Below, in pieces: positions 2,031 through 7,508 of a DNA stretch of 38,932 nt. Location: the IMG/VR virus record IMGVR_UViG_3300042691_022806, positions 1 to 38,932 of that record; one strand, written 5' to 3'. The position numbers were made by a program, and so were the translations under genes. Numbering within the stretch: the first letter of the stretch is position 1; each line of letters opens with the position of its first letter. The notes under the pieces were generated by a model. It searched no databases. It saw nothing but the letters and a program-made list of their open reading frames with translations, and was not told where the DNA came from. Source of the stretch: a virus.

Positions 2031-5000
2031 ATGTCCCAACCATATAAGAGCGGCAGACAACAGAATCTTAATCTTGGTATTACATCAATTACCGAGAGTC
2101 GCACAGTCTTACAAACGATTGGTAAAGTTGGTATTGGGACAACTAATGCACAACAGCATTCACTATTTGTTGTTGGATCTACAAATATTACTGGTGATAT
2201 TCGTGTAGGTGGTGCATCTACATTTGTTGGAGTCGGAACATTTAATAATGATTTGTATGTTGCAAATCAGTTATATGTTGGTGGAGTTAGTATTACTGGT
2301 GGCGCAACGGTTGGCGCAGATATTGTAACTAGAAATCTTCTAGCATCTGGTATATCTACACTTACTGGTCAAGTCAATGCCAATAGTGGATTAGATGTCA
2401 CTGGGCATACTGAACTTGATAATTTAAATGTAAGTGGTATTGCCACAATCAACAACCTGAATGTTCAGACAGGTTTTGATGTTTATGATACCACAGCAAC
2501 ATTCCATAACAATGTTCGTATTGATGGAAACCTAAGTATTGGTGGAACCGCAACGGTTATTGTTGCACAAGATTTAAAAGTATTTGATAAGGAAATAACT
2601 CTTGGCATTGCTACGAATGCTTTTGGTCAAGATATTTCAACTGATGATACTGCCAATCATGGTGGTATTGCGATTGCATCAACAGAAGGGTCACCGTTAG
2701 TAGATCTTTCTCTGGTTGGTTACAGCACAATGCCATCAACTTATAAACAGTTGATGTGGGTTGCTTCTAACTCATATGGTGTTGGAACAACCGATGCCTG
2801 GATGTTTAATTATGCAGTTGGTATTGGATCAACTCTTGTACCTAATGGTGCTTATCTGGCAGTTGGAGAAATCCAAGCAACGAAGGATACTCTTACTACT
2901 CCAAACCTCAATTCAACAAATCTTAATGTAACAAGTTCTTCAACTCTTGGTATTACATCAGCATCACAACTTTATGTTTCTGGTGTTTCTACTTTTGTTG
3001 GTGTAGGAACTTTCCAGAACGATCTTTATGTTGGTGGTGATCTATATGTTAGAGATGATGTATTTCTTGATGAACTAACTTCAAGAAATCTAAGAGTTAC
3101 TGGTCTTACAACCGTTGGCACTGTATCTGCAATCAGTGTAAATGCAAGTGGTATTATCACTGCAAATAGTTTCAGACCTAGCAGTGGTTTTATTCAGGCG
3201 GCAGATGGTACTAACTCACTCTACATTTATAATGGATCTGGAAATGTAGCATTTCAAGGAACGATTGGTGCTTCAAGCATTAATAATGGGCAAGGATATC
3301 AGGCGATTAACTTCACCACAACATCCACACCAACAGTTCTCATTCCAAATGATCTGAATGTAACTGGTCTCACAACTCTTTCCTCTGCTGGTGGTATTAC
3401 GACTACTGGTGGAGATCTTTATGTTGGTGGTGATCTCTACATTAAAGATGACCTATTCTTTGATGAGTTTACTGCCCGAAATGCAACAGTAACTGGCACT
3501 ACAACTCTTGGATTCACAACTACTGGACAACTTTATACTAAAAATATAGAAATTGCTGGTGTTGCAACGTTTAGAGGAAATGCATATTTTGGTGATACTG
3601 ATGTTCTTAATTTTGGTGATGGTAACGACTTACAAGTATTTCACGATGGATCAAATAGTTATGTAAGAGAAACTGGATCTGGTAGTCTTGTTCTTGCATC
3701 TGATGGTGTAGGTGTTGATGTATACAATGTTGCTCAGGGAGAATATCAGGCACGTTTTATTAATAATGGTGCTGTTGAGTTATATCATAATAATGTTAAG
3801 CGTCTTGAAACAACTGGATATGGTATAACAGTTTATGATACCATTCAAGCACCACAAATTAATATTAGTGGTATAGGTACAATTGATGGAGTAACAATTT
3901 CATCTGGAATTATTACATCATCAAATCCTGGTGTTACAACCATCAAATATTATGGAGATGGTTCAAACCTATTTGGTGTTAACGCCTTTAATGTTGTTAA
4001 TCAGGTTTTATCTGCATCACCTGTTTATCCAACATTTGCAAATAGTATTGGTGTCACATCCATTGGTATTTCTCCAACTGAGATGGGATATGTTCCTTCT
4101 AGTGGCAATCTTGGTATTGGTTCGACAAATCCAACTGCTAAATTGCAGGTCATTGGTGATGTCATCATTAGTGGGATCACAACACTAGGATCTGGTGCCA
4201 CTACAACTCAAACACTATTCACAAATCAGTTAAGTGTTTCTGGTGTATCAACATTCATTGGAGTTACTACAAGCAAGTCAACCATTTTTGGAAATCAGTT
4301 AAGTGTTTCTGGTGTTTCGACACTGGCAACACTTCACGCTCCAAAACTAACTCCTGATGGAACTGACTTTGGTGGATCCGAATATCTTGCAAAGGCAGAT
4401 GGTGCTGGTGGTTGGACTTGGGCAAGTGTTCCAGGAATATTCTCAGTCAATAATATTCTGAATGGTTTTATTGTCAAGGATGAAGGAGTTGTAGTAGGAA
4501 CTGCTGGAAGCATTACAACCCTTGATTTTAAAGGAAATAATATTATTGCAACGGCAGATCCACAACCAAATGGTATTGCAACTGTTCGTGTATCTGATAC
4601 TCCAACTTTCGATTCTCTTGTAGTTAACACTGGAATTACAACATTAGGAGTTACAACTTCTACATCACTATTCTCAAATCAACTCAGTGTTTCTGGACTT
4701 TCTACCTTTATTGGTGTAGGAACATTTAGAAGTGATTTATATGTTGGTGGAAACCTTTACATTCAGAACGACCTTGTATTTGATGAGGCAACAGTTCGTA
4801 ATATTAATGTAACTGGAGTATCAAGTTTAGGTATTGCCTCAGCAACAACCTTATTTGTTTCTGGTATTTCTACATTTAACAATGTTGTTAACATTGGTTC
4901 TGCGATTACTGCATATCCTGCAACTGGTATTATCAGTGCCACAGCATTCTATGGTGATGGTTCAAACCTTGCTAATACTGGATCCACATTAAACGCCGCA

Positions 5001-5914: not shown

Positions 5915-7102
5915 TTGGCTAATCAGAATTTTAGAGTCAAAAATGGACTCGAAGTAGGTACAAGTGTAACAATAAGTGCAGGAATTGTAACTGCCAATTC
6001 TTTTGTAGGTAATGGAAGCCAACTAACAAATTTATCTGCAAATTATGCTAGTGTAAGTGGAGTATCATCATCAGTTGTTGGTGGTGCGGTATCTGCAACT
6101 AGTTTAAGAGTAACTGGTATTTCTACATTTGATGGTGCAGTAAATCTAAGAAACGGGTATAATTTAAATATTGGTGATAATAATGATCTGAGGATTTACA
6201 ATGATGGAACCGACAGTAGAATTGAAGAGACTGGTTCGGGATCTCTTTATATATCAGGATCTGATATTAATATTCAACAGCATTCTACGAACAAAAATTT
6301 CGCAAGATTCGTAGGTCCTGCTGCTGAACTTTATTATGATAACAATAGAAAGTTATCAACATCTGGTATAGGAGTTACTGTTACTGGAACTCTTGTTGCT
6401 GATCATATTAATTTAAGTGGTGTCGCTACTGCTACAACTTTTATTGGAACTTTAAGTGGAAATGCTAGCAGTGCAACTTATGCCACTAACGCTGGTATTG
6501 CTACTTATTCTGCTAGTGCTGGTATTGCTACTTATTCTGCTAGTGCTGGTATCGCCACCTATGCTACTAACGCTGGTATTTCTACCGTTGCACAAGGTTT
6601 AACTGGAACTCCTAATATTATTGTCAATAATATTAATTCTTCCGGGATTTCTACATTAGGGATAGTACAAATTTCCTCTGGTATTATTACTGCAACATCG
6701 GGTATTGTTACTTATTATGGTAATATATCTAATACTATATCTGGAAGATGGACATTAGGTGCAAGTGGATCAAGTCATTATACTTTTGTCGGTGTTGGAT
6801 TTACTGAAACTACTAATGATCCAACTTTATATTTAAAGAGGGGAGAAATTTATGAATTTGTAAATAACTCTGGTGGATCTCATCCATTTCAAATTCGTGT
6901 ATCTAATGGTGGTGCCGCTTATAATAATGGAGTTACTAATAATGGCGCTTCTTCTGGGACCATAAGATTTGAAGTTCCCTATAATGCACCAGATACTTTG
7001 TACTATCAGTGTACAAATCATTCATCAATGGGTGGTGACATTAAAATTCTTGGTGGATCGGGGGGAGGAATTAGTGCTATTAATTGGATAAATTCTTTGT
7101 AA
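5915..7102 (+). CDS. Fibre-like protein with C-terminal cupredoxin-like domain (395 aa)
   Basis: Starts with TTG at 5915, behind an AAGGGG ribosome binding site and a late promoter; the alternative GTG at 5908 runs straight into a stop. Order of parts: N-terminal MANQNFRVKNGLEVG module; VGNGSQLTNL motif (residues ~30-40); a GDNNDLRIYNDG...ELYYDN module (~85-150); a tandem nine-residue AGIATYSAS repeat (~190-220); a GLTGTPNI segment; then a cupredoxin-like domain (~276-378). In that domain H323 (SHPFQI), C366, H369 and M372 (CTNHSSM) match the order of type 1 copper ligands, although the C-x2-H-x2-M spacing is one to two residues tighter than in plastocyanin or azurin. Probably a virion protein. 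Copper binding is not proven. Confidence 0.78.
   Translation: MANQNFRVKNGLEVGTSVTISAGIVTANSFVGNGSQLTNLSANYASVSGVSSSVVGGAVSATSLRVTGISTFDGAVNLRNGYNLNIGDNNDLRIYNDGTDSRIEETGSGSLYISGSDINIQQHSTNKNFARFVGPAAELYYDNNRKLSTSGIGVTVTGTLVADHINLSGVATATTFIGTLSGNASSATYATNAGIATYSASAGIATYSASAGIATYATNAGISTVAQGLTGTPNIIVNNINSSGISTLGIVQISSGIITATSGIVTYYGNISNTISGRWTLGASGSSHYTFVGVGFTETTNDPTLYLKRGEIYEFVNNSGGSHPFQIRVSNGGAAYNNGVTNNGASSGTIRFEVPYNAPDTLYYQCTNHSSMGGDIKILGGSGGGISAINWINSL
6473..6589 (+). repeat. 27-bp tandem repeat coding AGIATYSAS
   Basis: Two identical 27-nt units (6491-6517 and 6518-6544) are flanked by diverged half or full units from 6473 and up to about 6589. The period is nine codons, so copy-number change keeps the frame. 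Confidence 0.8.
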
Positions 7103-7139: not shown

Positions 7140-7508
7140 ATGGCTAATCCAAATATTATATCTGCAACTAGTTTAACTGGCAATTCTAAGGTTGTTAATT
7201 TAACAACAACTAACAATACCGGTATTGTTACTAATTCAATTTCTAGTAATCAAGTATACAGAGTAACTTGTATTCGTGCGACAAATTATGATGGTACAAA
7301 TGCTGCTGATATATCAGTATCAATTTACGATGCTAGTGAGGCATCTACTGGATATCTAGCATATACAATCAACGTTGTCGCAGATTCAACTTTTAATGTC
7401 ATTGATAAAACGGAAACTGTTTATCTTGAGGAGGGTGATTACATTTCCGCCCAGTCTAGTGCAGCAAATGATATTTCTGTTTATTGTAGTTATGAGGTCA
7501 TTGGATAA
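7140..7508 (+). CDS. Small virion protein, paralogue of the 37068 gene (122 aa)
   Basis: An all-beta protein without a recognisable enzyme motif. It aligns along its length with the protein at 37068-37439: shared MAxPNI start, YRVTCIxAxNxDGT/YRINSIIVANDDGT, ADSTFNVIDK/ADSTLVVLDR, YLEEGDYI/YLLENKSI and a final (V/C)CSYE ending. Both paralogues sit directly before a glycine-rich gene. Here the stop and the next start overlap as TAATG, so the two products are probably made together. A role as a connector for the following glycine-rich adhesin is inference from this conserved pairing. Confidence 0.72.
   Translation: MANPNIISATSLTGNSKVVNLTTTNNTGIVTNSISSNQVYRVTCIRATNYDGTNAADISVSIYDASEASTGYLAYTINVVADSTFNVIDKTETVYLEEGDYISAQSSAANDISVYCSYEVIG

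Follow-up and report, generated by a model that had tools for sequence, protein, structure and literature searches.

A fibre protein encoded in a viral DNA of 38,932 bases (the window: the whole of the linear IMG/VR record IMGVR_UViG_3300042691_022806, which resembles T4-like marine cyanophages, e.g., Bellamy and S-SM2) ends in a domain whose predicted structure is almost certainly a cupredoxin fold. The explanation that best accounts for the data, and one that we consider likely, is that this cupredoxin carries an intact type 1 copper site with an amicyanin-type loop and forms a separate globular module on a trimer-type fibre. Copper binding at this site is quite likely. The fold and the site are known, and their location is new. 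Within the open-licence PMC literature, a search by title found no description of a cupredoxin or copper domain on the fibres of cyanophages or other phages, and the cyanophage plastocyanin gene (petE), as presented in the available text of one report, is a separate metabolic gene (PMC2984593). The only listed paper to combine cyanophage and cupredoxin, PMC9605863, deals with Borgs.

The window is full of fibre and adhesin genes; several of its proteins have glycine-rich domains, and 2OG-Fe(II) oxygenases are also encoded. Positions 7508 to 38344 hold a string of glycine-rich-domain proteins (PF21722 and PF12810) together with 2OG-Fe(II) oxygenase genes and look like an adhesin-rich region. 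The 395-amino-acid fibre protein and its parts are listed in Table 1. In comparisons with PHROGs, hits of the N-terminal part are to virion structural and tail fibre families, while its C-terminal half matches phrog_677, the baseplate wedge tail fiber connector (E 2.6e-31), with the last ~105 residues falling on profile positions 304 to 409 (E 4.4e-37). The T4_gp9_10_N domain (PF07880) gave no match in this protein at E <= 1 in Pfam, which sets the protein outside the connectors; it is thus regarded as a fibre that shares only a C-terminal module with the gp9/gp10-like connector.

Table 1. Features of the fibre protein gene and of its predicted copper site, in window coordinates.
Feature	Position	Strand	Basis or remark
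Tail-fibre protein, 395 aa	5915..7102	+	TTG start, AAGGGG Shine-Dalgarno-like stretch upstream
Beta-rich fibre trunk, residues 83-156	6161..6382	+	Strands in full-length model, block pLDDT 77-92
Low-confidence linker, residues 182-271	6458..6727	+	pLDDT 38-46 in most blocks; ATYSASAGI-type repeats
Predicted cupredoxin domain, residues 277-379	6743..7051	+	AlphaFold2 model; Foldseek and VIA-align matches to copper proteins
His323 codon, candidate equatorial copper ligand	6881..6883	+	Read from sequence
Cys366 codon, candidate equatorial copper ligand	7010..7012	+	Sole Cys of the protein
His369 codon, candidate equatorial copper ligand	7019..7021	+	Read from sequence
Met372 codon, candidate axial ligand	7028..7030	+	Sole internal Met of the protein

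The first-pass annotation had reported H323, C366, H369, and M372 in the order of a type 1 copper site, within a beta-sandwich-like pattern at 6740 to 7060. A reading of the sequence bears out the four residues and their order, the extent found here is close to the one proposed, and the beta-sandwich agrees with the eight-stranded cupredoxin fold predicted by AlphaFold2. The C-x2-H-x2-M spacing had also been described as tighter than in plastocyanin; that part stands, but the loop is of the same length as the amicyanin loop, with which it aligns without a gap, and we take it to be the loop named for amicyanin. Histidines occur in the protein only at positions 123, 164, 288, 323, and 369.

Residues 267 to 392 were modeled with AlphaFold2 from a 68-row alignment, giving a domain of eight strands, as in a Greek-key type beta-sandwich, with a mean pLDDT of 88.7, a pTM of 0.82, and core blocks at 95 to 98. 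The four candidate ligands are residues 57, 100, 103, and 106 of this model. In the same numbering, the first His lies just ahead of strand 59-62, the Cys closes the penultimate strand (95-100), and the second His and the Met lie between the Cys strand and the final strand (107-113). These are the canonical places of cupredoxin ligands in the model, and we infer from the topology that the four residues cluster. A full-length model (28 rows, mean pLDDT 70.0) sets the domain apart as a separate globule (90 to 95) after the low-confidence linker.

Structural comparison of the model points to copper proteins. Of the 15 PDB matches that Foldseek returned at E <= 0.001, nitrite reductase, rusticyanin, and plastocyanin account for 14, and the 15th comes from one chain in a respiratory supercomplex; the TM-scores of the PDB matches are moderate (TMq 0.36 to 0.54). 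By VIA-align, the best match is Hyphomicrobium nitrite reductase 2dv6 (Z 11.3, rmsd 4.0, 99 residues aligned), with another Hyphomicrobium nitrite reductase structure, 6tfo_C, at Z 11.1 (rmsd 2.4, 97 aligned) and rusticyanin 2cal at Z 9.6 (rmsd 2.7, 94 aligned). Foldseek matches in BFVD include proteins labelled "beta-sandwich" from metagenomic genomes of pithovirus and marseillevirus (E 1e-5 to 1e-7).

Searches of Pfam, NCBIfam, and, with a single sequence, the PDB gave sub-threshold matches only, and so profiles were needed to link the domain to copper proteins. The window copy scored 12.5 to 13.4 bits against PF00127 (plastocyanin/azurin; gathering score, 21.2) and 13.6 bits against the NCBIfam amicyanin equivalog TIGR02657 (cut-off, 110.2), which places it outside both families, while PF00127 matches at E <= 1 were found in 20 of 33 relatives (best E, 1e-4). 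The top PDB match by E value in the single-sequence search, the Src SH3 domain (0.083), was dismissed as chance. With a profile of 15 divergent copies, PDB sequences of plastocyanin were reached at E 0.0016 and of amicyanin at E 0.006. In this search, Cys, His, and Met were in register with the same ligands of plastocyanin; in an earlier profile alignment to plastocyanin (E 0.45), the four candidates fall on all four copper ligands. Copper proteins account for 36 of the 45 PDB sequences at E <= 1 in the 15-copy search, and the other 9 are eight penicillin acylase chains and one mannosidase.

Conservation of the four ligands in relatives, which the first-pass annotation had named beforehand as a test, proved strong. 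All four are invariant in 33 of 33 rows of a first alignment and in 68 of 68 rows of a second, both of which, like the genome-contig set described below, are biased by retrieval patterns that partly contained the C and H; this is why scans were repeated with queries cut ahead of the Cys, with one of the six search patterns per scan still containing the first His. These ligand-blind scans recovered the full set, HCHM, in 60 of 60 unique copies of one set and in 52 of 59 with a pelagiphage query, where the remaining 7 are HCHH. A syn9 query gave 142 matches, comprising 101 HCHM copies, 1 HCHS copy, and 40 ligandless partial matches, and a ligand-blind scan with the S-H9-1 domain gave 18 stretches, none of them a confirmed relative. 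The seven HCHH copies (loci L315, L317, L319, L321, L322, L323, and L324) keep H, C, and H and have His in place of the axial Met (C-x2-H-x2-H).

A combined count was restricted to unique copies that cover at least 80 of 103 columns and have an aligned Cys column; partial matches were left out, among them the HCHS copy and the 40 ligandless matches from the syn9-query set. Among the resulting 287 near-complete copies, 278 are HCHM, 7 are HCHH, 1 is HCHQ, and 1 is FAVM. Reduction to 65 representatives at <70% identity leaves 62 HCHM and one each of HCHH, HCHQ, and FAVM. In these representatives, the ligand columns are 97 to 98% conserved versus a median of 48% over 96 columns, and three non-ligand columns (Y, P, and G) are 100% conserved. 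Type 1 copper sites have a fixed H-C-H set and a variable axial residue, and the pattern read from the aligned sequences, with His, Gln, or Ser in place of Met in a few distant copies, matches this. Eight further cultured or single-cell phages yielded 15 domain matches, 13 of which have the full set by reading and 2 of which are ligandless. In S-SKS1 (L091), the ligands are kept within a longer loop, C-x4-H-x2-M, in a protein of >1,450 amino acids.

Copies without the site bear on the alternative that the domain is a metal-free adhesive cupredoxin fold, with the ligand residues kept for packing or the lone Cys kept as a thiol. Phage fibres often reuse beta-sandwich folds for binding, and ligandless relatives do exist. 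The S-B43 copy (L092, CDS 2446-4788) has lost His, Cys, and His together to become FAVM, and the 40 ligandless partial matches, which have E, Q, N, S, H, L, or D in the first ligand column and no aligned C-H-M, sit in the gene after gp9 of syn9-like phages, where their persistence suggests that the fold is usable without copper. However, wherever the site is kept, so are H, C, and H, across 35 to 59% identity to the window copy and in phages and bacteria alike, and metal-free use leaves unexplained why three ligands stay or go together. Also, apo-cupredoxins fold without copper, and so folding alone would not fix the ligand residues. We regard this metal-free use as improbable.

In the gene after gp9 (L081, L082, L437, and L442), there is a second match, which is distant but whose site reads as complete in Syn19 and S-RIM12, along with a third, ligandless one. 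RB11-B has a copy matching that of S-B43 at 203664-203927 and a second copy, with the motif intact, at 138470-138769.

The domain has matches in 364 of 50,697 phage records, and 355 of these records are named Synechococcus phage, Cyanophage, or Prochlorococcus phage. Most copies in cultured cyanomyoviruses form the C-terminal end of a T4 gp9/gp10-like baseplate protein. For instance, syn9 gp9 has T4_gp9_10_N at one end and the cupredoxin domain at the other, and it matches phrog_677 over 409 of 412 positions (E 3.4e-190); the P-TIM68 homologue, like that of syn9, has T4_gp9_10_N. The N-terminal part of syn9 gp9 matches 1,077 records, many enterobacterial T4-like phages among them, whereas the cupredoxin part matches 324 records, all of them cyanophage, Prochlorococcus, or marine, which marks the domain as one grafted on in the marine lineage. 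A profile search found no domain match in T4, Ma-LMM01, S-CRM01, P-SSP7, or HTVC008M.

Fibre-like proteins of podoviruses (P-SCSP2 and P-GSP1) also have the domain, N-terminally; a pelagiphage fibre has it internally, and subtilase-like proteins (S-H9-1 and ACG-2014e) have it C-terminally. In this last pair (L087 1303-3309 and L089 1264-3324), the S-H9-1 protein matches the PF00082 subtilase family at E 3.3e-21, and the ACG-2014e protein, similar in sequence and layout to that of S-H9-1, corresponds to a Peptidase S8/S53 protein in BFVD. In S-CAM1 (L088 2305-4560), the domain is seemingly circularly permuted inside a subtilase-like protein, with the C-H-M strand (residues ~202-218) ahead of the His-bearing part (~235-309).

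Beyond phage records, 48 loci on genome contigs carry the domain, and 50 of their 51 unique copies are HCHM under a search pattern that included the C and H. Many of these carriers are exported, and many have a lipobox, according to a simple pattern test for signal peptides; the exported carriers are marine Bacteroidota lipoproteins with Lipoprotein_15 repeats or a CHRD domain. Three MAG contigs (L227, L231, and L274), classified under Gammaproteobacteria, Rickettsiales, and Rhodobiaceae, have domain-bearing ORFs that are fibre- or gp9-like, and so these contigs are probably phage sequence. Sequence comparison places the domains of cyanophage baseplate and fibre proteins and those of exported bacterial proteins in one common family.

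Judging from its protein family, the window protein would be a component of the virion. For a probable relative there is proteomic evidence: the available text of a study of S-SZBM1 lists in the virion proteome a baseplate wedge protein of 498 amino acids, S-SZBM1_206, with 9 peptides and 24.9% coverage (PMC9146016). The domain match in S-SZBM1 falls under a gene named baseplate wedge protein, and the gene order and lengths parallel those of P-TIM40, whose 491-amino-acid gp10-like protein ends in the domain. By annotation name, gene order, and length, S-SZBM1_206 is probably the domain-bearing orthologue. In the cryo-EM work on P-SCSP1u, the available account describes the distal fibre parts as unresolved; the related P-SCSP2 has the domain.

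As to function, we tentatively put forward a role in attachment or at the tip, with copper as a stabiliser, a reading that we hold as plausible while giving it somewhat less than even weight. The module would most likely be a tip or connector domain for attachment, and bound copper would rigidify the ligand loops and cap the lone cysteine. The finished particle would hold one copper ion per chain. Phage proteins fold in the cytoplasm, and the module lacks an export signal, so this copper would most likely be acquired after lysis. Electron transfer would be possible but is not demanded by the data. A more far-reaching proposal, which we rate as rather unlikely, is that marine cyanomyovirus particles as such are copper proteins, with type 1 sites on the baseplate connector and the fibres that acquire copper from the lysate or seawater once the particle is assembled and whose copper state controls attachment or baseplate firing. 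If true, a virion machine would contain a redox-active metal centre, and this centre would be common to most cultured marine cyanomyoviruses.

Other uses of the four residues fare worse. A site for another ion (e.g., Zn, Fe, or Ag), or a general metal staple by which the fibre tip is stiffened in the manner of the T4 gp37 iron, is very unlikely. Metal-stabilised fibre tips are known from the HxH iron sites of T4 gp37, as described in the available text of PMC11705849, but the HxH motif, the hallmark of iron-binding tail fibres, is absent from the window protein, and a Cys/His2/Met set in a cupredoxin fold is a copper signature. Still less probable is a working redox copper centre that gates adsorption by light or host electron flow. 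According to the available text of PMC7112961, P-HM2 does not adsorb in the dark and P-SSP7 lacks this effect. P-HM2 has two HCHM copies and P-SSP7 has none, but these are only two phages, from different families, and no electron-transfer partner is known. S-PM2 reportedly shows light-dependent adsorption despite an incomplete site. With the site present in P-HM2, absent from P-SSP7, and incomplete in S-PM2, light-gated adsorption is unsupported as a rule. Finally, although short motifs may arise randomly, chance has practically no standing here, since the arrangement was reproduced in 1 of 200,000 composition shuffles of the 395-amino-acid protein, H-x(36-52)-C-x2-H-x2-M occurs in none of the 1,233 other ORFs of at least 150 amino acids (389,136 residues) from the examined loci, the fold is predicted, and conservation by itself already refutes it.

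Returning to the copper-site reading, the presence of the same domain on many related ocean viruses means that their particles may carry copper. Were the site filled, the host-contact apparatus of a highly abundant group of ocean viruses would bear a blue-copper centre, and copper would join the metals in the proposed role of phages as seawater metal ligands. A filled site would also open cyanophage attachment to testing, and it would account for a conserved domain whose only label in PHROGs and GenBank is baseplate or hypothetical protein.

Among known copper proteins, amicyanin and plastocyanin share with the window domain a beta-sandwich in which a His precedes a strand, a Cys ends the penultimate strand, and a His and a Met lie in the next loop, and amicyanin shares the length of the C-x2-H-x2-M loop as well. 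These two proteins are free, soluble electron carriers, whereas the window domain is the end of a phage fibre, and the context of the first ligand is HPF in the window domain and PHN-type in amicyanin and plastocyanin. The site is amicyanin-like, yet it lies outside the amicyanin equivalog family. The closest solved folds by Z score, the N-terminal cupredoxin domain of Hyphomicrobium nitrite reductase and rusticyanin, are 16 to 25% identical to the window domain in the alignments. Nitrite reductase and rusticyanin are respiration enzymes or electron carriers, not adhesins.

Nearer relatives differ in what the domain is attached to. The last ~105 residues of the phrog_677 connector are the same domain as that of the window protein, but the syn9 connector has T4_gp9_10_N and the window protein does not. 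Exported lipoproteins of Flavobacteriia and their relatives have a C-terminal domain with the full HCHM set (44 to 57% identical in the Bacteroidota loci), which follows a signal peptide and Lipoprotein_15 repeats or CHRD, whereas in the window protein it follows fibre repeats. The Ferrojan/Trojan Horse fibres (HxH of T4 gp37 and alterophage R22Y) offer a parallel of another kind, in that a metal centre on a marine phage fibre has been proposed for them in the available text of PMC11705849. In those fibres, HxH motifs hold octahedral iron between three chains, whereas the window fibre has no HxH and would hold its metal, predicted to be copper, at one site within each chain.
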